Below are positions 4,562-41,024 of a stretch of DNA of 64,000 nucleotides, one piece after another. The notes under the pieces are model-generated. The model ran no database searches. It saw only the letters and a program-made list of their open reading frames with translations, and was not told where the DNA came from. The stretch covers positions 248,001 to 312,000 of the forward strand of contig NZ_QBKI01000003.1 in the NCBI RefSeq assembly GCF_003054055.1. The letters run 5' to 3'. This DNA is from Pontibacter mucosus (GTDB taxonomy: Bacteria > Bacteroidota > Bacteroidia > Cytophagales > Hymenobacteraceae). Each line of letters starts with the position of its first letter. Within the stretch, counting starts at the first letter, position 1. Both the position numbers and the translations under genes were made by a program.

Positions 4562-5077
4562 CTATTTTCCCGCTGCTCCCTGCCATTGAGCCAACAACTC
4601 ATCCAGGCCTTCCATGGCCATGGTCAGTCCTTCCTTGAAGCCCATTTGGATGGTGGTTTCCAATTGTGCCAGGTCATCAAACGTTATGCTATTCTCTACC
4701 AAAGTGACATTGCCGTTGTCGGTAAAAGTCACTTCCCATCTTGATTGGGGCAATTCTTCGTTGATGTTCCCTTCAGCGTCTGCAAATGCGTCCAGAACGG
4801 TAAAGCCTTTATGGGGCTGAATGCGTTTGTAATTGGCCAAAGCCCAGTGCTCTTCTCCCTCTGGCCCGACCATGGCGTAAAGCCACGAGCCGCCTTCCCT
4901 GAAGTCCATCGTTTTGGTTTTTGCCTTCCATGGCTTGGGTGCCCACCACTGGTCAAGAAGCTCGCTTTTGGTGTAGGCATCCCACACGAGCGCAAGCTCC
5001 GCTGCAAATTCTCTTTTCACGGTAATCGTTTTGCTTTCCTTGTCCACAGAAAAGTCAAAGGCTAATGCTTCTTTCAT
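4562..5077 (-). CDS. SRPBCC/AHSA1-domain protein
   Basis: 171 residues spanning one START-like helix-grip fold of the AHSA1 family. The typical opening [34 protein letters not shown] is present (seen as [17 protein letters not shown] and DQWWAPKPW), followed by the [12 protein letters not shown] strand and the C-terminal helix [19 protein letters not shown]. Such proteins bind hydrophobic ligands, and the specific ligand is unknown. Its start codon overlaps the stop of the upstream arsR-type gene by four bases, the classic two-gene operon in which an ArsR repressor controls an SRPBCC partner. Confidence 0.85.
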
Positions 5078-5394
5078 CGTTTATTTTGTTTTAAAGTGGA
5101 TAATACATTATCGAGCTCCTGGAAGCGGCCTTCCCAAATACTCCTGAACTGCTCCAGCCACTGATCCACCTCCTTCATTTTACTTGCTTCGAGGTGATAG
5201 TATACTTCCCTTCCCTGCTGCTCTTGCTTTACCAGTTGGCACTCGGTCAGTATTTGCAGGTGCTTTGACACGGCTTGTCTGCTGCTGTTAAAATGCGCTG
5301 CTATGGCATTGGGTGTCATCGCCTGCACCGCAATTAGGCCGATGATGGCCCTTCGGGTAGGATCTGCTATGGCTTGAAATACGTCTCGTCTCAT
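5074..5394 (-). CDS. ArsR-family winged-helix transcriptional regulator
   Basis: From the ATG at 5394 the product is 106 residues and begins [18 protein letters not shown], the standard start of this ArsR subgroup; the frame extends 19 codons further upstream but without family-like sequence. The helix-turn-helix is seen as [20 protein letters not shown], followed by the wing [16 protein letters not shown]. No metal-binding Cys cluster is visible, which fits the SRPBCC-linked, non-metal subgroup. It is the first gene of the operon with the downstream AHSA1 gene. Two operator-like repeats lie just upstream (5407-5450), suggesting autoregulation. Confidence 0.87.
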
Positions 5395-7922: not shown

Positions 7923-9764
7923 CTACTTCCGCACAAAATCCTCAAACGACGCCTGCATGTACGCCTGCCCTTGCTTTAGCTGCGCGTCCGTTACGCCTTC
8001 TTCCCAGATGATGGGCTGTTTGGCTACGTTGTCATAGGTGAGCACGCCGTTGGGGGTGATGTAGCCAAAGCCATCGTTAAAGACATAAAAGGCAAAAGGT
8101 AAGGCCGTAGGCGAGAGCAGGTTGCGGCTCCAGGTAAACTGCTGGTGCGGCAGCTGCAGTTGCGCGAGTAAGGTCGCGGCAATGTCAGCCTGGCTTCCGA
8201 TGGCGTCTATGGTAATGCCTCCCTTAGCCAATGCCCCTCCAGTAAGTATAAACGGAATCTTGAACTTAGAGGGAACGTGGTTGGGGTCGTTGCCCGGCAG
8301 GCGGTGGCCATGGTCGGCGGCCAGCACCACAAGCGTGTTTTGCCACCAATCCTGCTGCTTAGCTTCTTCTATAAACTTGCCCAGCGCCCAGTCGGTATAG
8401 TATACGCTGTTGCGGAATTGCGCCTCCTCATCGGTGCCCGGAAATTTGGCCGGTATTGGAATCTCGAAGGGCTCATGGCTACTCAACGTATAAACGGTGC
8501 AGAAAAACGGCTGCTTTTCCGTTTTTAGATCCTCTTGCACGCGGGCAAACAGCACATGGTCGTGGGTGCCCCACTTGGAGTTATAGGTGCTCGGGTCGAA
8601 GTCATACTTGTCGATCAGCCGTTTGTAGCCGCCGTTGCGCAGGTACGACTTGATATTGGCAAACTCCAGCTCGCCGCCATAATAATAGCTGGTGCTGTAG
8701 CCCTGCTCCTGCAAAATCTGGCTCAGCTGGGGTAGTTTTTCCGTTTTCTGCGGATACTTTATAATAGAGGTCGTCGTCTGCACCGGGTAACCACTTAACA
8801 GGGCTACCATGCCTTTCTCGCTGCGGTCGCCGGAGGCGTAGATGTTAGTAAAATTAACCCCTTGGGCAGCGAGTTTGTCCAGGTTTGGCGTTACGCCCTT
8901 CTCGCCGCCCAGGCTCCCTACAAACTTAGCGGTATAGCTTTCCAGGATAATGAAAAGCACATTCGGTTGCTGCACCCGCAGCAGGTTTTCAGCAGAATCT
9001 GGTGAGGCAGAAGTATATAGCGCCTGCACCAGTTCCGCAGCCTCTCCCTCGGGCATATATTGATAGGGGTTACTGCCCGATTTCTCATACTTGAGCAGGG
9101 CGTGCATCAGGTTCCAGGGCATGTTGATGCCGGCGTGGTTGGCGAAAGGCTTCTCCGAGAAGTATACCACGCTCTGGTTTATCGGAATCTGCTGCCACCC
9201 GCCGCGCAACGGGAGCACCAGCAAGGCAGCGAAAAGCAGCGAAAAGCCGGCCAGCACCCATGGCTTGGGGTCTGGTTTATACTTTGGCAGGTCGAAGAAA
9301 CGGCGGAAGAAGAGTATAAATACCGCAGCGACGGCAAAAGTTACGATGAAAAGTATAAACAGGGGGGCGGCGGCAGCGGAGGCAGCCATTTCGGCCGGGG
9401 AGCTCAGGTACTGCAGCGGCGAAGCATCCAGCCTAAACCCCCAGTGGCTATACAACTCCAAATCCACCGTGAGCAGGGCAGACAGCAGCACCAGTAGGAT
9501 GGTGGTGTAGTAGCGGATAATTTTTGCTACCTGCAGGCGCTTCCACAGGCTTGCAACCAGCAGGAGCAGGAAGGGCACTATACTTATATAGGCGGCAAAA
9601 GAGGCATCCATCCGCAGGCCATACACAAAAGTATAGAGCACTTCCGAGGAGCTTAAGTCGGCGCTGCGGTCGAGGTGGTAAACCAGGAAGATGGCTCTGG
9701 CTACTATAAAGTAAAGTATCCAGAACAGAAAGTATAAGGGTTGGTAGAAGATACGGCGTTTCAC
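7923..9764 (-). CDS. LtaS-type membrane sulfatase / phosphoglycerol- or phosphoethanolamine-transferase family protein
   Basis: 613 residues. The first 190 residues contain about five membrane helices, after which a periplasmic alkaline-phosphatase-superfamily domain begins near residue 265 (NVLFIILESYTAKFVGSLGG). The segment ASGDRSEKGMVALLSGYP occupies the place where LtaS enzymes have their catalytic Thr, and LAADHGHRLPG supplies metal-binding Asp and His. In Gram-negatives such proteins make phosphoglycerol- or phosphoethanolamine-modified lipids or glycans. Which substrate is used here cannot be told. It is transcribed alone, diverging from glnN. Confidence 0.82.
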   Translation of the reverse strand: MKRRIFYQPLYFLFWILYFIVARAIFLVYHLDRSADLSSSEVLYTFVYGLRMDASFAAYISIVPFLLLLVASLWKRLQVAKIIRYYTTILLVLLSALLTVDLELYSHWGFRLDASPLQYLSSPAEMAASAAAAPLFILFIVTFAVAAVFILFFRRFFDLPKYKPDPKPWVLAGFSLLFAALLVLPLRGGWQQIPINQSVVYFSEKPFANHAGINMPWNLMHALLKYEKSGSNPYQYMPEGEAAELVQALYTSASPDSAENLLRVQQPNVLFIILESYTAKFVGSLGGEKGVTPNLDKLAAQGVNFTNIYASGDRSEKGMVALLSGYPVQTTTSIIKYPQKTEKLPQLSQILQEQGYSTSYYYGGELEFANIKSYLRNGGYKRLIDKYDFDPSTYNSKWGTHDHVLFARVQEDLKTEKQPFFCTVYTLSSHEPFEIPIPAKFPGTDEEAQFRNSVYYTDWALGKFIEEAKQQDWWQNTLVVLAADHGHRLPGNDPNHVPSKFKIPFILTGGALAKGGITIDAIGSQADIAATLLAQLQLPHQQFTWSRNLLSPTALPFAFYVFNDGFGYITPNGVLTYDNVAKQPIIWEEGVTDAQLKQGQAYMQASFEDFVRK

Positions 9765-9854
9765 GACACAAATATAGAGTATAACTCTGCAGCCGTCTAC
9801 AAGAGTTTCCTGAAAGCGTTTGTTTATGCGAAAGTATGGAGGGTTATCTTTTAA

Positions 9855-9967
9855 TAGGGGTATTTGGCAAATATGAGAGCTTTGTTGTGATAGGGGTATG
9901 CAAAGAAAGGGGGTGTTAGATGTTAAGTCAAAAAAAATGCAGATACCCCCTAAAAAAATAGGGGGTA
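9855..9967 (+). promoter_or_regulatory. Repeated TAGGGG(G)TA elements upstream of glnN
   Basis: The 9-mer TAGGGGTAT occurs at 9855-9863 and again at 9891-9899, 36 bases apart in the same orientation. A perfect inverted repeat TACCCCCTA-N6-TAGGGGGTA follows at 9944-9967, ending 6 bases before the promoter-like TTTG. The same short word four times in 115 bases, once as a palindrome, is what a dimeric activator or repressor site array looks like. The regulator is unknown. Confidence 0.55.
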
Positions 9968-9972
9968 GATAA

Positions 9973-10001
9973 TTTGGTTTTAAATTTTGTGCTTAAATTT
10001 G
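9973..10001 (+). promoter_or_regulatory. glnN: Bacteroidota-type promoter of glnN
   Basis: TAAATTTG at 9994-10001 matches the Bacteroidota -7 consensus TAnnTTTG exactly. A TTTG at 9973-9976 could be the -33 element, although the 17-base spacing is slightly shorter than the usual 19. Transcription would start near 10008, leaving a leader of about 25 bases. Confidence 0.5.
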
Positions 10002-10032
10002 GTGCAGATTTAAAACCCAAACCCACACGCCC

Positions 10033-12222
10033 ATGGCAACCATCCGTATCAAAGCGCTGGAGCAGGCTAACCAGCACAAACCAGGAGAGGTAAAACTGCC
10101 TTCTCACATCATCTCGGACTTTTTCGGCGAAAACGTATTTGGCAACGGTGCCCTGCGTTCTACCATGTCCTCGGAGAACTACAAGCGCCTGCAGCGCACC
10201 ATCGAGGCAGGGGAGCGGGTAGACCGCGACCTGGCCGATGCTGTGGCTGCCGCCATGAAAACCTGGGCTATCAGCAAAGGGGCCACGCACTACACGCACT
10301 GGTTTCAGCCACTAAATGGCGCCACTGCCGAGAAGCACGACTCCTTTTTCGACCTTTCCGGCGATGGTGAGGCCATCGAGACCTTTAAAGGCAGCGCGCT
10401 GGTGCAACAGGAGCCCGACGCTTCTTCGTTCCCGAGCGGTGGCATCCGTAACACCTTCGAGGCACGTGGGTACAGCGCCTGGGACCCGTCTTCCCCTGCC
10501 TTCCTGATAGAGAACGCCGGATCCAAGACCCTTTGTATCCCAACCATCTTCGTTTCTTACACCGGTGAGGCCCTCGACTATAAAACGCCGCTTCTTAAAT
10601 CGCTGAAGCTACTCAATGATTCGGCTGTTCCGGTTTGCCAGTACTTTGACAAGGACGTGGTGAAGGTAAACACTACACTGGGTATCGAGCAGGAGTACTT
10701 CCTGGTAGACAAGGCGCTGTACGAGGCGCGCCCGGACCTTGTGATTACAGGACGCACCATTTTCGGACACGCGCCGGCAAAAGGGCAGCAGCTCGAGGAC
10801 CACTACTTCGGCAGCATCCCAAGCCGTGTGCACGCCTTCATGGTTGACTTCGAGAGATCGGCCCTGCGCCTGGGCATTCCCCTGAGAACACGCCACAACG
10901 AAGTGGCCCCCAACCAGTATGAGTGCGCCCCAACTTTTGAGGACGCCAACCTGGCCGTTGACCACAACCAGCTGCTGATGGACATTATGGGCCGTGTGGC
11001 GGAGCGCCATAACTTTAAGGTGTTGTTGCACGAGAAGCCCTTTAAGGGCGTAAACGGCAGCGGTAAGCACAACAACTGGGCCATGAGCACCAACACCGGT
11101 GTAAACCTGCTGAGCCCGGGCAAGAAGCCGAAGGAAAACCTGCAATTCCTGACTTTCTTCATTAATACCATCATGGCCGTGCATAAGCACGCCGACCTGC
11201 TGCGCGCCAGCATCGCCTCTGCCAGCAACGACCACCGCCTGGGTGCCAACGAGGCACCTCCGGCCATCATGTCGGTTTTTATCGGGCAGCAGCTTTCTGC
11301 GGTGCTCGATGAGTTTGAGCGCACGTCCAAGATTCCGATTGAGAAAGGCGACAACATGTACCTGAAGCTGGGTATCGACAGGATTCCGGAGGTATTGCGC
11401 GACAACACCGACCGCAACCGTACTTCTCCGTTCGCCTTCACGGGTAATAAGTTTGAGTTCCGTGCTGTGGGCTCTTCTGCCAACTCTTCTTCGCCGGTTA
11501 CGGCCCTGAACACCATCGTGGCCGATCAGCTGCAGGAGTTCCGCAAGTCGGTGGATGAGCTGATTGAAAGCGGCATGAAGAAAGAGCTGGCCATTATTCA
11601 GATACTGCGTGAGTACGTGGCAGCCTCCAAGAACATCATTTTCGAAGGCAACGGTTACTCCAAAGAGTGGGAAGAAGAAGCTGCCAGTCGCGGACTTTCC
11701 AACATCAAGTCGACACCGCGCGCGCTGGATGTGTACGGCAGGGAAGAAGTGAAAGAAGTTTTCAGTAAGCACGGCATCTACTCGGAGCTGGAGCTGGAGG
11801 CCCGCCACGAGATTCTGCTGGAGGAGTACGTGAAGAAGATTCAGATCGAATCACGCATTATGGGCGACCTGGCCATGAACCACGTGGTACCGACAGCCAT
11901 TGCCTATCAGAACAAGCTGATCCAGAACGTGCGCGGCCTGAAGGAACTTGGTCTGGAGGATGAGTACACTGAAAGCACCATCCAGGGAATCAAGAAAATG
12001 TCCGGCTACATCACCGCCATTCAGAAAAACGTGCGCGACATGGTGAATTCCCGTAAGGTGGCCAACAAGATAGAGGATGCCCGTGAGCGTGCGATCATGT
12101 ACAACGAGGAGGTGCTAAGCTACTTCGAGCCTATCCGCTACGCTGTAGACAAGCTGGAGCTGATGGTAGACGACAACGATTGGCCGCTGGTAAAATACCG
12201 CGAGCTGCTGTTCCGCCACTAA
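10033..12222 (+). CDS. glnN: Type III glutamine synthetase GlnN
   Basis: 729 residues, the characteristic length of GSIII. It condenses ammonia and glutamate using ATP and is the main ammonium-assimilating enzyme in many Bacteroidota. GSIII signatures seen include GATHYTHWFQPLNG near residue 80, GIEQEYFLVDK, NEVAPNQYECAPTFEDANLA, GVNGSGKHNNWAMSTNTGVNL and SASNDHRLGANEAPPAIMS, plus the long C-terminal helical region that sets GSIII apart from GSI. The ATG at 10033 is 32 bases after the -7 element. The upstream region carries repeated operator-like words, and a strong terminator follows, so it is monocistronic. Confidence 0.96.
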   Translation: MATIRIKALEQANQHKPGEVKLPSHIISDFFGENVFGNGALRSTMSSENYKRLQRTIEAGERVDRDLADAVAAAMKTWAISKGATHYTHWFQPLNGATAEKHDSFFDLSGDGEAIETFKGSALVQQEPDASSFPSGGIRNTFEARGYSAWDPSSPAFLIENAGSKTLCIPTIFVSYTGEALDYKTPLLKSLKLLNDSAVPVCQYFDKDVVKVNTTLGIEQEYFLVDKALYEARPDLVITGRTIFGHAPAKGQQLEDHYFGSIPSRVHAFMVDFERSALRLGIPLRTRHNEVAPNQYECAPTFEDANLAVDHNQLLMDIMGRVAERHNFKVLLHEKPFKGVNGSGKHNNWAMSTNTGVNLLSPGKKPKENLQFLTFFINTIMAVHKHADLLRASIASASNDHRLGANEAPPAIMSVFIGQQLSAVLDEFERTSKIPIEKGDNMYLKLGIDRIPEVLRDNTDRNRTSPFAFTGNKFEFRAVGSSANSSSPVTALNTIVADQLQEFRKSVDELIESGMKKELAIIQILREYVAASKNIIFEGNGYSKEWEEEAASRGLSNIKSTPRALDVYGREEVKEVFSKHGIYSELELEARHEILLEEYVKKIQIESRIMGDLAMNHVVPTAIAYQNKLIQNVRGLKELGLEDEYTESTIQGIKKMSGYITAIQKNVRDMVNSRKVANKIEDARERAIMYNEEVLSYFEPIRYAVDKLELMVDDNDWPLVKYRELLFRH

Positions 12223-15311: not shown

Positions 15312-15812
15312 ATGAACCTTAACGAACAACTAAGCATTACAACTTTCCGGAATGACTGGCAAAAAGCCAGTATGAGCCTGTTGTACACATATGGCTTCTT
15401 AAGCAACGGGTATGAGAACTTCTTTAAAAAATTCTCGCTGACAAACCAGCAGTACAATGCCCTGCGCATTCTGAGAGGTCAGTATCCCACACCTGTCTCT
15501 ACTTCCTTCCTGCGTGAGAAGATGCTCGACAAAATGTCTGATGCCTCTCGCCTGGTAAGCCGCCTGAACGCCAAAGGATTTGTTACCGTAGCACAGAACC
15601 CGGCCGACAAGCGTCTGGTAAACATTGTGATCTCGGATAAAGGCCTGGAGTTGCTCGAAGCGATAGACATAGACTTATACCAACTGGATGGCCTGTTGCA
15701 AGGGCTGACCGAGCAGGAGGCCAGCGTTCTGGTGGACCTGCTGCAGAAAGTACGCGACTCTATTGTGACGGCTGAAGAGAGATTAGCCGCCTACGAAACC
15801 TTAACCGCATAA
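15312..15812 (+). CDS. MarR-family transcriptional regulator
   Basis: 166 residues of one MarR-type winged helix with dimerisation helices at both ends. The recognition region is seen as FSLTNQQYNALRILRGQ, STSFLREKMLDKMSDASRLVSRL, then the wing KGFVTVAQNPADKRLVNIVISDKG, with the D-K/R-R signature of the family. The C-terminal helix LTEQEASVLVDLLQKVRDSI completes the dimer interface. The ATG at 15312 follows an A/T-rich promoter region. It stands alone, so its target cannot be inferred from neighbours. Confidence 0.9.
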   Translation: MNLNEQLSITTFRNDWQKASMSLLYTYGFLSNGYENFFKKFSLTNQQYNALRILRGQYPTPVSTSFLREKMLDKMSDASRLVSRLNAKGFVTVAQNPADKRLVNIVISDKGLELLEAIDIDLYQLDGLLQGLTEQEASVLVDLLQKVRDSIVTAEERLAAYETLTA

Positions 15813-25534: not shown

Positions 25535-26367
25535 CTAGGGTGTGTCTGAAAAATATGGTTTGAGGCAGATTTTCATAAAGGCTAGTTGAACGAAAGCCAG
25601 ATAGCTGTCAGCGAGCTTTTCGAATCTGCAGGCAAACCGCCTCATTTCCTTGAGCCTGCCAAAGAGCCTTTCAATGATGTTTCTTTGGCGGTACATCTGC
25701 CTGCTCACTTTGGGCGGCCTTCCTTTTCTTCTGCGTTTGTTTCCCTCCGGCAGGCCCCTTTCCGGTATCTGGGCCCTGATGGACTGCTCCCGCAGCACCT
25801 TGCGGACGACCTGGCTGTCATAGCCTTTGTCAGCCACCAATACTTTAGGCTTTTTCTCTTCCAGTTCCAGGAGCCTGGGCAACTGTGGGGCTTCACCGGC
25901 CTGGCCACCGGTCAAGAGCACCTGCAGCGGGAAGCCCCTGCCACAGCACAAAAGGTGCACCTTCGTAGAGAAGCCACCCCTGGACCTGCCTAGAGCCTGG
26001 TCTTCTTTTTTTTAGCCCCCGCGGTAGCTTTGTGCGCCTTGTTGATGGTGGCGTCCACAAACCAGGTGTTCAGGTCCAGGTAACCGTCCTGCAGCAGGCG
26101 CAGCCTTAGCTTCTTCAGGATCTTCTCAAACACTCCCAACTGCTGCCACTTCCTGAACCTGTCATATACCGTCTGCCAAGGGCCATACTTGGCCGGCAAG
26201 TCTCGCCAGGGGCTGCCAGAACACAGGATCCAGAAGACACCGTTGAGGATTTTCCTATCAGACCGGCTGGGCCTGCCCCTGCCGTCTTCTCTGATTACTG
26301 GCTGCGGCAGCTCCTCTTCTATAAGCTCCCACTGCCGCTGACTTAGCTCGTATCTGCCGTGACTCAT
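25535..26367 (-). CDS. IS5-family transposase read through a -1 frameshift
   Basis: Two overlapping frames make one transposase. The first (ATG at 26367, 125 residues, stop at 25990) contains the N-terminal domain ELSQRQWELIEEELP, WRDLPAKYGPWQTVYDRFRKW and the first catalytic Asp in WFVDATINKAHKA. The second carries RSRGGFSTKVHLL, the second Asp in VLVADKGYDS, and the catalytic Glu in RNIIERLFGRLKEMRRFACRF. They meet at a run of eight A (plus-strand T run at 26006-26013); slipping back one base there joins AKKK to EDQALGRSRGGFSTK, the normal IS5 sequence. The stop TAG (25535-25537) lies outside the element, in the flanking CTAG duplication. Confidence 0.9.
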
Positions 26368-31888: not shown

Positions 31889-34483
31889 TTGAAACAAACT
31901 TTACACGTAACATCCTCCAGCAAATTAGCTGTCAGCTTTTCGCTTTGTTTTAGTTTTCTTAGCCTCTCTGCATCGGCACAAACCACTGCAGCTGATAGCC
32001 TTGTCACGGGGCTTGGCACACATAGAGTAAGCGAAATTACAGAGTCTGTCAGTCAGCTACGGCCCGAAAATTTAAATAAAGGATTCATTACCTCCCCAGA
32101 GCAATTGCTGGTTGGCCGGATACCAGGTTTACGGGTTATTTCAAATGGAGGAGCCCCAGGGGCCGGAGCTGAAATGCTGCTGAGAACCGGAAGCTCGCTC
32201 ACAGCCAGCAGTTCACCTCTGATTATTTTAGATGGCGTCCCGTTCTCAGGGAATGGTGCATCTGATCATGCAGGTGTGCTCACCTTCCTGAACCCTGCGG
32301 ATATTGCCTCAATTACTCTTTTAAAAGATGCCCCACAGGCAGCAATGTATGGTGGGAGGGCGTCAAACGGTGTACTCTACATTACAACCAAAAAAGGAGC
32401 TAAAAATGAAAAAATAAGGCTGCATTACAGTGCAACAGCAGCCATATCGACACTACGCCGGAAAGCCCCTGTGCTTGATGCGAACAGTTTCAGGGACATC
32501 GTAAAAGACCTTTACCCGGACCAGGACCACTTGCTGGGCGCAAGCAACACCGATTGGCAGGATGTCATTTACCGCAAGGCCTTTAGCCACGATCAACACC
32601 TGCAAATGAGCGGTGCCCTTCTTAAAGCAGTGCCTTTTAGTATGTCAGTAGGGCATCTGAAGGAGAACGGCATCCTAAAGGGTTCGAACCAAAGGAGGAA
32701 TTCTTTCTCTGCATCGCTTAACCCAAGCTTACTGAAGGACCACCTGAGCCTGAATTTATACTTTGCGCAGGTAAACCAGAAGCTCCGGGTGGCAGACAAA
32801 GAGGCCATAACCGGCGCCTGGGCTTTCGACCCAACACAGCCCGTGCACCAGGATAACAAGTATGGCGGATATTTCATATACCCGAAATACGGCGTCGAGA
32901 ATCCGCTGAGTATGCTGGAGCAGCGCCACGATTCAGATGAAACCAGGCACCTGCTGGGGCAGGCGCACCTGCAGTATAAGTTCCATTTTTTCCCTTCGCT
33001 TAGCATTAACGCGCGCCATGCTTTCCAAAAGCAGGATAACGAATTTGTAACTTTCAGACCTGCAGACATGTACGCTGTAGCGCACTATAAAGGGTGGGTG
33101 CAACGCAACACGTGGGAGCATAACTGGCATCTAACGGAGTTATTTCTGAACCTGGAGCACGAAATTAAACTTTTGCAGAGCCGCCTGCAGGTAACTTTTG
33201 GCAGTAGGGGAAGAGAAACGGTTCAAAGAGGCCACGACTACGCTCCCCATACTGAAGAGGGCAAAATTATTATGGACCAAGCACGTGAGCGCCACTACCA
33301 GAGTGAATCGGCATCAGCAGGGATGTTTGGAAGTGCTTCGTTCACCTATAAAGATAAGTATACGCTGCATGCTGCAGGCTCCCGGCATGATTTCTCAGCG
33401 TTGAACATGCATACAAAACCTTTGCTCTCCGGAGGTTTGGGCGCATCCTGGGACATTGCCAGCGAAACTTTTCTCAAGGGCAACCCCTGGCTTTCGGAGC
33501 TCCGGGTATACACGAACTATGGCAGGCATGCAAACCCCGATGCCATGGGACGCAAGCATTTTAGGGACAGGCAAATAACGGCAGAAACTACCACTAAGTG
33601 GAACGCAGGCATGCATGGAGCTTTCTGGGATGGCAAACTGCAGGGCAACATAAACTTTTATACTTCTATAACCGATGATATGGTGCTAAATGCACTCGTA
33701 CCCTTTGCATCAAGCCAATTCCGTCTTCCTTTAAACTTAGGTAAGTATAAGGCAACAGGAGTAGAGGTAGACTTGAATTATGTGCTTCGGGAATCCTCTT
33801 CTTTTTATTGGCAGGTTGGGACTCATTTAACCACAACCAACTCTGAGGTGCTAGAACTTGCTGATGGGTACCGTTATTTCCAGTATCCTGATGAAAGGTT
33901 TGCATTAGGCTTGGAGAAAGGCTCCCAGGTGCGTGCCTTTTACCTGCTGGAGCAGCTTTACGACGAAGAGGGATTACCAATACCGGGTAAGTATAAACCA
34001 AATGAATACGGCCACGTTCTTCCGCGCTTATCTCGTTCGTCGGATCCGGCTTATTTGGTTGGGTTCAGCACTGATGTAAAGTATAAAAAGCTCGGGGCGA
34101 GCTTGTTGCTGAACGGTGCGGTTGGTCAGCATATTTACAATCATGCCGGTGATAGGGCGAGTCGAGTTTCCCCCAATTTTGATAAGGGGTACCTTGTAAA
34201 CGGTACAAGAACCTTCGTGGAGACTGAGTACAGAAGCCCACTCTATCAAAGTGATTTTTATTTAGAGAAAGGCTCATTCCTGCGCTTGCAGTACCTTAAC
34301 TTTAGCTATGACTTCAGTAGTGGCTCTTCAGAAAAAGTCGGGTTGAGAGGAATGGCCACAGTGCAAAATGCCTTTGTTTTGACAAAGTATAGCGGCCAGG
34401 ATCCCGAAGTTAAAGATGGCATCGACTATGGCCAGTATCCGCAGCCAACTACTTTCTCACTAGGCATTAGCATGCAGCTGTAA
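31889..34483 (+). CDS. SusC/RagA-type TonB-dependent receptor, short orphan form
   Basis: 864 residues from a TTG at 31889; no ATG lies at the right place and the following SSKLAVSFSLCFSFLSLSASAQ is a clear signal peptide. The plug shows the SusC pattern SPEQLLVGRIPGLRVISNGG, LLRTGSSLTASSSPLIILDGVP and LKDAPQAAMYGGRASNGVLYITTKKG. The rest is a 22-strand-type barrel ending TTFSLGISMQL. It lacks the N-terminal carboxypeptidase-like domain that usually precedes the plug in SusC, and no SusD gene follows; a terminator comes 3 bases after the stop. Its bases look more A/T-rich than neighbouring genes, which may point to later acquisition. Substrate unknown. Confidence 0.85.
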   Translation: MKQTLHVTSSSKLAVSFSLCFSFLSLSASAQTTAADSLVTGLGTHRVSEITESVSQLRPENLNKGFITSPEQLLVGRIPGLRVISNGGAPGAGAEMLLRTGSSLTASSSPLIILDGVPFSGNGASDHAGVLTFLNPADIASITLLKDAPQAAMYGGRASNGVLYITTKKGAKNEKIRLHYSATAAISTLRRKAPVLDANSFRDIVKDLYPDQDHLLGASNTDWQDVIYRKAFSHDQHLQMSGALLKAVPFSMSVGHLKENGILKGSNQRRNSFSASLNPSLLKDHLSLNLYFAQVNQKLRVADKEAITGAWAFDPTQPVHQDNKYGGYFIYPKYGVENPLSMLEQRHDSDETRHLLGQAHLQYKFHFFPSLSINARHAFQKQDNEFVTFRPADMYAVAHYKGWVQRNTWEHNWHLTELFLNLEHEIKLLQSRLQVTFGSRGRETVQRGHDYAPHTEEGKIIMDQARERHYQSESASAGMFGSASFTYKDKYTLHAAGSRHDFSALNMHTKPLLSGGLGASWDIASETFLKGNPWLSELRVYTNYGRHANPDAMGRKHFRDRQITAETTTKWNAGMHGAFWDGKLQGNINFYTSITDDMVLNALVPFASSQFRLPLNLGKYKATGVEVDLNYVLRESSSFYWQVGTHLTTTNSEVLELADGYRYFQYPDERFALGLEKGSQVRAFYLLEQLYDEEGLPIPGKYKPNEYGHVLPRLSRSSDPAYLVGFSTDVKYKKLGASLLLNGAVGQHIYNHAGDRASRVSPNFDKGYLVNGTRTFVETEYRSPLYQSDFYLEKGSFLRLQYLNFSYDFSSGSSEKVGLRGMATVQNAFVLTKYSGQDPEVKDGIDYGQYPQPTTFSLGISMQL

Positions 34484-40097: not shown

Positions 40098-41024
40098 ATG
40101 CCCATCAAGTATAACCTGCAACCAGTGGCCCTGCGCGAGGAGCGATCTCTGTTCACCTTGGTCGAAAACAGGTCGGTGTATAGTATGGATTCCTGTGAGC
40201 TGAACGTGTTTGAGACGCACCAGCAAGCAGAAGGTGTGCAGCTGCAGTTTGATGATTGGGTGCTGACCAGCATGTTGCGCGGCAAAAAAGTCATGCATCT
40301 CTCGGATGGCCCCGGCTTTGACTACCTGCCCGGTGAATCGGTGCTAGTGCCGCCACGCGAGCTGATGACGATTGACTTTCCGGAGGCAAAAAAGGAGACG
40401 CCGACGCAATGCCTGGCCCTGGCTATCTCCGCGGAACAGATACAGGATACGATTGGCTTGCTGAACGAGCGGCATACCAAGGCAGAGGCAGGAGAGGAGT
40501 GGCAAATCAGCAAGGAGCACCTGCACCTGGCCAACAACCTGGAACTGGCCGAGATCATTAACCGCCTTATTCGGCTCGGCCTGCACGAGCAAAGCCGTGA
40601 GAAAGACATCTTGGTGGATCTGGCGCTACGGGAACTGCTGGTGAGGCTGATGCAGACGCAGGCGCGGGCATTTTTTGAGCATAACTACAAACGGCTGGCC
40701 AGTAGCAATCGCTTCGGCTACATCATTCAATATATTAAGGAGAACATCACCTCCAAGATTGATGCCGACAAACTGAGCGAGAAAGCTTGCATGAGCCGCG
40801 CCAATTTTTTCCGCAAGTTTAAAGAGGAGCTGGGCTTTACGCCCGCCGATTATATTCTGAAAGAGCGCATCCGGCTGGCCAAAACTTACTTGCAGAATCC
40901 GCTAAACTCTGTGACCCAGGCCTGCTATATGGCCGGTTTCCAGAACCTCAATTACTTTATCCGGGCCTTTAAAAAAGAAGTCGGCCTGACGCCTAAGGCT
41001 TTTCAGCTGAGTTATTTGAATTGA
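40098..41024 (+). CDS. AraC-family regulator of the aldehyde dehydrogenase operon
   Basis: From the ATG at 40098 the product is 308 residues starting MPIKYNLQPVALREERSLF. The N-terminal cupin-like AraC_N domain spans about 15-190 (ELNVFETHQQAEGVQLQF, YLPGESVLVPPRELMTIDFP). The C-terminal DNA-binding domain has two helix-turn-helix units: DADKLSEKACMSRANFFRKFKEELGFTPADYILKERIRLAK (in parts) and SVTQACYMAGFQNLNYFIRAFKKEVGLTPKAF. The divergent position and the direct repeats in the shared promoter make control of the ALDH/DUF779 operon likely. Confidence 0.9.
   Translation: MPIKYNLQPVALREERSLFTLVENRSVYSMDSCELNVFETHQQAEGVQLQFDDWVLTSMLRGKKVMHLSDGPGFDYLPGESVLVPPRELMTIDFPEAKKETPTQCLALAISAEQIQDTIGLLNERHTKAEAGEEWQISKEHLHLANNLELAEIINRLIRLGLHEQSREKDILVDLALRELLVRLMQTQARAFFEHNYKRLASSNRFGYIIQYIKENITSKIDADKLSEKACMSRANFFRKFKEELGFTPADYILKERIRLAKTYLQNPLNSVTQACYMAGFQNLNYFIRAFKKEVGLTPKAFQLSYLN

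Follow-up and report, generated by a model that had tools for sequence, protein, structure and literature searches.

The DNA upstream of glnN in Pontibacter mucosus is probably the operator array of a regulator of nitrogen assimilation, which would be used in Hymenobacteraceae and, in a simpler form, elsewhere in Bacteroidota and would activate glnN in step with nitrogen supply. The window, i.e. the whole stretch of DNA analysed (64 kb), contains this array between glnN and a divergent ORF beginning at 9764. According to sequence reading and spacing, positions 9840-9967 hold six C/G-run half-sites with the core GGGGT or GGGT, which form three pairs (Table 1). The pair centres are located near 9850, 9903 and 9955.5, giving steps of 53 and 52.5 bp, and ~53 bp corresponds to five helical turns. 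Pair III is the perfect palindrome TACCCCCTA-N6-TAGGGGGTA (9944-9967), with its centre ~49-50 bp upstream of the predicted glnN transcription start. The TTTG element was assigned by the -33 consensus. The transcription start was predicted near 10006, since the Bacteroidota -7 box spans -12 to -5 according to PMC9723704. Two to three ACCC words are found just 5' of the glnN start codon (10014-10032) and also in many congeners' leaders.

Table 1. Features of the glnN upstream region in the window, with the half-site columns of the genus alignment and their occupancy in 37 genomes ("empty" denotes no half-site at the threshold used).
Feature	Sequence	Positions	Strand	Column	Occupancy in 37 genomes	Basis
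Half-site Ia (weak)	AGGGT	9840-9844	+	-192	14 occupied: 13 forward, 1 reverse	sequence; pair detected by spacing
Half-site Ib (word 1 of the earlier note)	TAGGGGTAT	9855-9863	+	-176	21 occupied: 20 forward, 1 reverse	sequence
Half-site IIa (word 2 of the earlier note)	TAGGGGTAT	9891-9899	+	-138	7 forward, 16 reverse, 14 empty	sequence
Half-site IIb (absent from the earlier note)	AGGGGGTGTT	9908-9917	+	-122	29 forward, 0 reverse, 8 empty	sequence
Half-site IIIa (left palindrome arm)	TACCCCCTA	9944-9952	-	-85	28 reverse, 1 forward, 8 empty	sequence
Half-site IIIb (right palindrome arm)	TAGGGGGTA	9959-9967	+	-69	20 reverse, 6 forward, 11 empty	sequence
Likely -33 element, glnN promoter	TTTG	9973-9976	+			sequence
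-7 element (TAnnTTTG consensus), glnN promoter	TAAATTTG	9994-10001	+			sequence
glnN, type III glutamine synthetase, 729 aa (ATG at 10033)		10033-12222	+			ORF; Pfam GSIII_N, E 1.3e-76

An earlier note on this DNA had reported the word TAGGGGTAT twice, 36 bases apart, and a perfect palindrome with N6 just ahead of a promoter. Both are found exactly so (half-sites Ib and IIa; pair III followed by TTTG and TAAATTTG), and the elements named in that note belong to the array, but half-sites Ia and IIb had been missed. The word occurs in exactly these 2 copies in the window, where 0.21 are expected by shuffling, and two copies were reached in 1 of 100 shuffles. For the palindrome, the window contains one perfect match, which is also the only one in the 5.23-Mb genome, and a single further place, at 34168, that differs by 3 mismatches; shuffling gives a mean of 0.01. 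Steps of 50-57 bp from one pair to the next are seen twice in the window and not once in 40 block-shuffled copies; single pairs are not significant within the window (6 against a shuffled mean of 12.9).

For the genus, 37 genomes including that of P. mucosus (G000) were compared. At least one pair is present in the 200 bp before glnN in 30 of them (100 dinucleotide shuffles: mean 2.0, maximum 8), and the total number of pairs is 50 against 2.1 in shuffled sequences; the other seven genomes have no pair at the threshold. The glnN upstream DNA is otherwise near saturation, with a median pairwise identity of 0.57 against a shuffled baseline of 0.54. The earlier note had staked its reading on conservation of the words before glnN, and in these 30 genomes they are kept. 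Half-site distances in the promoter set peak at 14-17, 36-40, 52-55, 67-70, 90-92 and 108 bp. Promoters outside glnN were partly collected by a search with the "<>" form (reverse then forward, as in the palindrome), which biases the orientations in the mixed promoter set; pair orientations and column counts are from glnN only. There, pair III is found as << (16) or <> (6), pair II as <> (13) or >> (6) and pair I as >> (8) or <> (1), and the arrangement >< is absent among the 50 glnN pairs of the genus. Half-site positions are kept across the genus, orientation not always. In each pair, one half seems to be fixed, its T edge facing outward, and the other seems to tolerate flipping, since the columns -122 and -85 are nearly uniform and the columns -138 and -69 are mixed.

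These orientations also bear on whether the palindrome is a terminator or a DNA or RNA hairpin instead of a protein site, a reading which we consider hardly credible. A terminator-like pattern is indeed called on the minus strand (9967-9944), but the palindrome is located between divergent genes, ahead of the glnN promoter, and 16 of 22 proximal pairs are direct repeats, which are unable to form this hairpin and yet keep the distance to the promoter. The hairpin reading was rejected, as the direct repeats at the same position and the location upstream of the promoter strongly disfavour it.

The distance between site and promoter is fixed at glnN: measured from the site centre to TAnnTTTG, it peaks at 36-38 bp and again at 90-92 bp. 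The 126 promoters examined include 60 with a site; in 26 it stands 35-42 bp before TAnnTTTG, and all 26 belong to glnN. None of the 14 glnK and nirB promoters (8 glnK, 6 nirB) has the glnN-type fixed distance to the -7 box. At glnK, the 53-bp step is kept, and such pairs as are present have their centres at about -30, -84 and -136 relative to the ATG; the nearest pair or half-site is just 20-40 bp before the ATG. No TAnnTTTG follows this nearest pair; a one-mismatch -7 box is found at -63 to -69, between two pairs, in 7 of 8 glnK promoters (L194, L189 and L079 among them). At the six nirB promoters, sites are located ~100-600 bp upstream, and there is no clear box at the glnN distance. The array is common to the targets, but the promoter contact is not the same at all of them.

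An activator fits at glnN, because the sites are locked to the promoter at ~-49 and copies follow at five-turn steps. Activation is not general, as the geometry at glnK differs from that at glnN. The same sites could instead bind a repressor, or a regulator which represses some targets (glnK-amtB) and activates others; we consider this somewhat unlikely. It draws on the glnK promoters, in 7 of 8 of which the nearest pair or half-site lies downstream of the one-mismatch -7 box, a layout which would fit repression or else the use of another promoter. However, the glnK promoter is predicted only, and the sites at glnN (~-49, -102 and -155) stand at a constant distance from the promoter, clear of the -7 box. 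With the array across or after the predicted glnK promoter, the regulator may repress there, act with both signs or use an unrecognised promoter.

Further targets were searched with the strict palindrome ACCCCYTN8ARGGGGT, which gives 7 places in 50 genus genomes against 1 for the reversed control. Four places precede glnN (G000, G009, G010, G012) and one precedes glnK-amtB (G025); the remaining two are at an operon with trpD2-like, PilJ-kinase and LuxR-regulator genes (G002) and inside an ORF (G023). In the family, 17 places were found in 16 of 204 genomes (reversed control, 5). Nitrogen genes account for ten of the 17, newly including nirB (G113, G119), glnK-amtB (G209) and glnN (G225); six of the other seven are not at nitrogen genes and one was not looked at. 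When one mismatch was allowed, 4 of 59 genomes had matches, and the place in G037 is not at a pair. The direct-repeat pattern was not used as a search tool because its 8 places in 50 genomes (2 at glnN) equal the 8 in the reversed control. Altogether, the element precedes glnK-amtB in eight genomes (G002, G023, G024, G025, G027, G036, G064, G209), nirB in six (G024, G025, G027, G036, G113, G119), the operon with trpD2-like and narXL genes in two (G002, G027) and, weakly, a second amtB in G023. The gene names nirB, trpD2-like, TonB receptor and curli, as well as most of the relatives' glnK and amtB, were assigned by eye. The element before glnK-amtB and nirB is as expected of a nitrogen regulator and supports the proposal of the earlier note that the array is the site of such a protein.

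In addition, a sequence-only profile of the two-pair unit was built from 22 promoters and run on 50 whole genomes, of which 13 (G059-G071) were left out of the tally because the place of glnN was not known. In 33 of the 37 tallied genomes, the best match is at a nitrogen promoter (glnN 28, glnK-amtB 4, nirB region 1, other 4). The training set contained the best match of 18 of the 37; for the remaining 19, which are relatives of training genomes, the figure is 15 of 19, some of these untrained matches being weak (E from 1.2e-9 to 0.10 for glnN). The four misses are in G007, G013, G031 and G033; inspection covered those in G007 and G031, neither of which is at a nitrogen gene. Twenty stretches from a longer list of further matches comprise 10 nitrogen genes (nirB, glnK-amtB, amtB, glnN), 3 TonB-receptor-like genes and 7 places elsewhere. 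In G000, only glnN is significant among the profile matches listed, and the next match (E 0.08) lies close to an apparent proton-pumping pyrophosphatase gene.

The profile matches before TonB-receptor-like genes (L193, L195 and L196, in G036 and G064) are near amine-oxidase, aminotransferase or peptidase-like genes. It is possible that these receptors belong to the regulon as nitrogen-scavenging members.

Outside the genus, 75 of 80 named glnN loci were used; in the other five the DNA before the gene was short or incomplete. Two of the 75 records carry labels of MAGs from other phyla. A palindrome of C-run, A/T and G-run precedes glnN in 18 of 75 loci (60 shuffles: mean 0.5, maximum 2) and is lacking in the other 57. 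The opposite arrangement was found in 2 of 75 (shuffle mean 0.7, maximum 2), as was the direct repeat (shuffle mean 1.4, maximum 5). Twelve of the 18 palindrome loci are titled Flavobacteriales (Tenacibaculum, Bizionia, Flavobacterium, Brumimicrobium and MAGs) and one is Hymenobacter. With a stricter pair criterion, 7 of 70 loci outside Hymenobacteraceae have a pair, all <>, against 0.8 expected. Half-site distances in these 70 loci peak at 12-14, 39-41 and 51-56 bp, and two half-sites 50-56 bp apart are present in 26 of 70, a count without shuffle control. Nothing similar was seen by eye at the glnN loci of Pedobacter, Mucilaginibacter, Dyadobacter and Spirosoma. The five named Hymenobacteraceae have mainly single half-sites (0 of 5 with a pair at the threshold), and among 22 sequences from the order's other families just one has a pair. 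The conservation extends to part of the phylum, where the palindrome or a 53-bp-spaced set precedes glnN. At four loci (L276, L286, L295, L311), the operator is located between glnN and a divergent ORF read by eye as a type II-like glutamine synthetase.

For comparison, the operator motifs of known nitrogen regulators were counted at the 37 glnN promoters of the genus and at 70 other glnN loci. TnrA activates from about -50. This position was not found in the accessible part of PMC4475385. According to passages of PMC6191146, the MerR-family regulators TnrA/GlnR of Bacillota target glutamine synthetase, amtB-glnK and nitrate/nitrite genes, similar to the putative regulator of the array, and the operator given there is TGTNAN7TNACA. 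This operator is found at 0 of 37 glnN promoters (0.35 expected) and 1 of 70 other loci (0.70 expected). The array also differs from it in the 53-bp period of its pairs, one half of which may be reversed. Actinomycete GlnR belongs to the OmpR family and has a box sequence different from that of the array. It is alike in having several paired a/b boxes within a single nitrogen promoter, with three box pairs at Streptomyces coelicolor amtB (PMC5826061). The NtcA box GTAN8TAC was found at 1 of 37 glnN promoters (2.95 expected) and 2 of 70 others (5.75 expected). NtcA controls glnN and other nitrogen genes in cyanobacteria, and glnN is a target it has in common with the array. In Pseudomonadota, the same physiological role is filled by NtrC and sigma-54 together with GlnB/GlnK. 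TGGCACN5TTGCW and GCACN7GTGC are each absent from the 37 glnN and the 70 other loci, and a looser sigma-54 pattern is found at 1 of 37 and 1 of 70, near chance; in contrast to the NtrC/sigma-54 system, glnN here has a TAnnTTTG promoter and the genome is without a P-II match. NarL and NreC bind C/G-rich, heptamer-like half-sites, which the half-sites of the array resemble, and in G002 a NarXL-like pair shares the operator. However, the half-sites of the array are 14-17 bp apart, with no 7-2-7 arrangement, and the NreC arrangement TAGGGN4CCCTA was not found beyond chance at glnN. Judged by these motif counts, the operators of TnrA/GlnR, NtcA, NarL (7-2-7) and NreC and the strict NtrC and sigma-54 motifs do not fit the glnN array.

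Two proteins were considered as binders. The first is a small (~115 aa) MerR-family protein beside alaS, which would be the functional counterpart of Bacillus TnrA/GlnR and may sense nitrogen via glutamine synthetase; we regard this assignment as unlikely. One strong match of that size is present per genome in 31 of 31 genus genomes (L209 and 30 further genomes), and in all seven loci looked at the gene adjoins alaS, in most followed by a dprA-like ORF (by eye). MerR-family operators such as that of CadR (ACCCT-N11-AGGGT) resemble the palindrome. The target set of TnrA (amtB-glnK and nitrate/nitrite genes; PMC6191146) is similar to that of the array. For the small MerR protein of G021, a glutamine synthetase repressor of solved structure ranks after CarH, with E 1.7e-4, but its best curated models are HspR and MlrA, with the TnrA model ninth and none reaching the cut-off. 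Further points speak against this protein: no site pair precedes its own gene in the 7 loci, the TnrA/GlnR box is not found at glnN beyond chance, and genomes with a weak glnN array (G007, G027) have the protein just as the others do. Pairs in direct repeat, as in the array, would be unusual for a MerR dimer.

The second is a NarL/FixJ-type response regulator (NarXL-like), whose role as the binder appears quite unlikely. The half-site resembles the Escherichia coli NarL heptamer TACYYMT, which is found in 23 of 37 glnN promoters against 12.9 expected, though the 70 other loci show no enrichment (24 against 27.2 expected), and the NarL 7-2-7 site is absent from all 37 and all 70. NarL-type regulators tolerate half-sites in several orientations, which speaks for a binder of this kind. 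In G002, the palindrome precedes the operon encoding a PilJ-domain sensor kinase together with a LuxR-type regulator; among the fetched profile matches, only this narXL-like operon has a regulator gene next to a site. G000, however, has no ortholog of the G002 PilJ sensor (two matches with 31-32 percent identity, in the kinase part only), and the corresponding nirB loci of the outgroup genomes G040 and G046 are without sites by eye. NarXL was therefore set back as the general binder. PilJ-kinase and LuxR-type regulator genes of this NarXL-like kind are found with nirB-, nitrate-transport- or trpD2-like genes in several Cytophagales (L104 13514-17000, L140 5664-9150, L141 2840-8007, L143 4994-9990; names partly by eye).

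Other routes to a binder were tried and abandoned. A search via autoregulation was of no use, as G000 has no second significant place among the profile matches listed. Two HisKA_3 kinases of G000 show no tie to the array; downstream of one (C2) comes a short receiver ORF, in the neighbourhood of curli-like genes, and the other (C12) has a LuxR-type regulator nearby. The regulators in the window, read by eye as ArsR-like (5074-5394), MarR-like (15312-15812) and AraC-like (40098-41024), have no visible link to nitrogen. Elsewhere in G000, a cyanophycinase-like gene is located a few kilobases from a PAS-kinase/LuxR-regulator pair (L237 6641-13281, by eye), and at 25535-26367 of the window two overlapping minus-strand ORFs were read by eye as an IS5-type transposase in two frames.

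In the proposed mechanism, a regulator protein would recognise half-sites (R)GGGGTRT in pairs, with a distance of ~14-17 bp between the two. The proximal pair at glnN, ~49 bp upstream of the predicted start, is beside the -33 element, where a protein on it could contact RNA polymerase; one or two more pairs, in steps of 53 bp farther upstream and on the same face of the DNA, would strengthen binding cooperatively. The regulator would set the level of glnN and, where present, of glnK-amtB, nirB and other nitrogen genes by nitrogen supply; most simply, it would switch on when nitrogen is scarce. We infer that one protein binds all sites, activates glnN and responds to nitrogen, and likewise the cooperativity and the sign of control.

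The earlier note had remarked that Bacteroidota often lack the NtrC-GlnB logic, and as to GlnB this holds for this genome: G000, which is 99.98 percent complete, has no match to P-II (PF00543) or AmtB (PF00909) at E ≤ 0.001. Therefore, the usual P-II relay is unlikely as the sensor, and nitrogen sensing in this genome is probably P-II-independent. In Prevotella ruminicola, large ammonium-dependent changes of amtB, glnK, glnN and gltBD are described in PMC5552732. The direction of control cannot be borrowed from there, because its passages conflict on whether it is limiting or non-limiting ammonium that raises amtB, glnK and glnN; in the main text, the terms "transcription factor" and "promoter" are absent.

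The array would thus be an operator for a nitrogen regulon, of unusual architecture and present beyond its own family, with a putative binder. No description of this operator was found in the literature searched (titles and abstract openings, with few subscription journals covered). Tentatively, and as a real possibility, we propose an undescribed P-II-independent master nitrogen regulator common to a good part of Bacteroidota and ancient enough to span Cytophagales and Flavobacteriales, which would bind pairs with one fixed and one flippable half every five turns and may read nitrogen directly or via glutamine synthetase III. In the literature covered, the control of ammonia assimilation in Bacteroidota, a major phylum in guts, soil and sea, is not settled. 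For finding the regulator, the array offers a bait and a mutable reporter, and its spacing rule can be searched across the genomes of the phylum.
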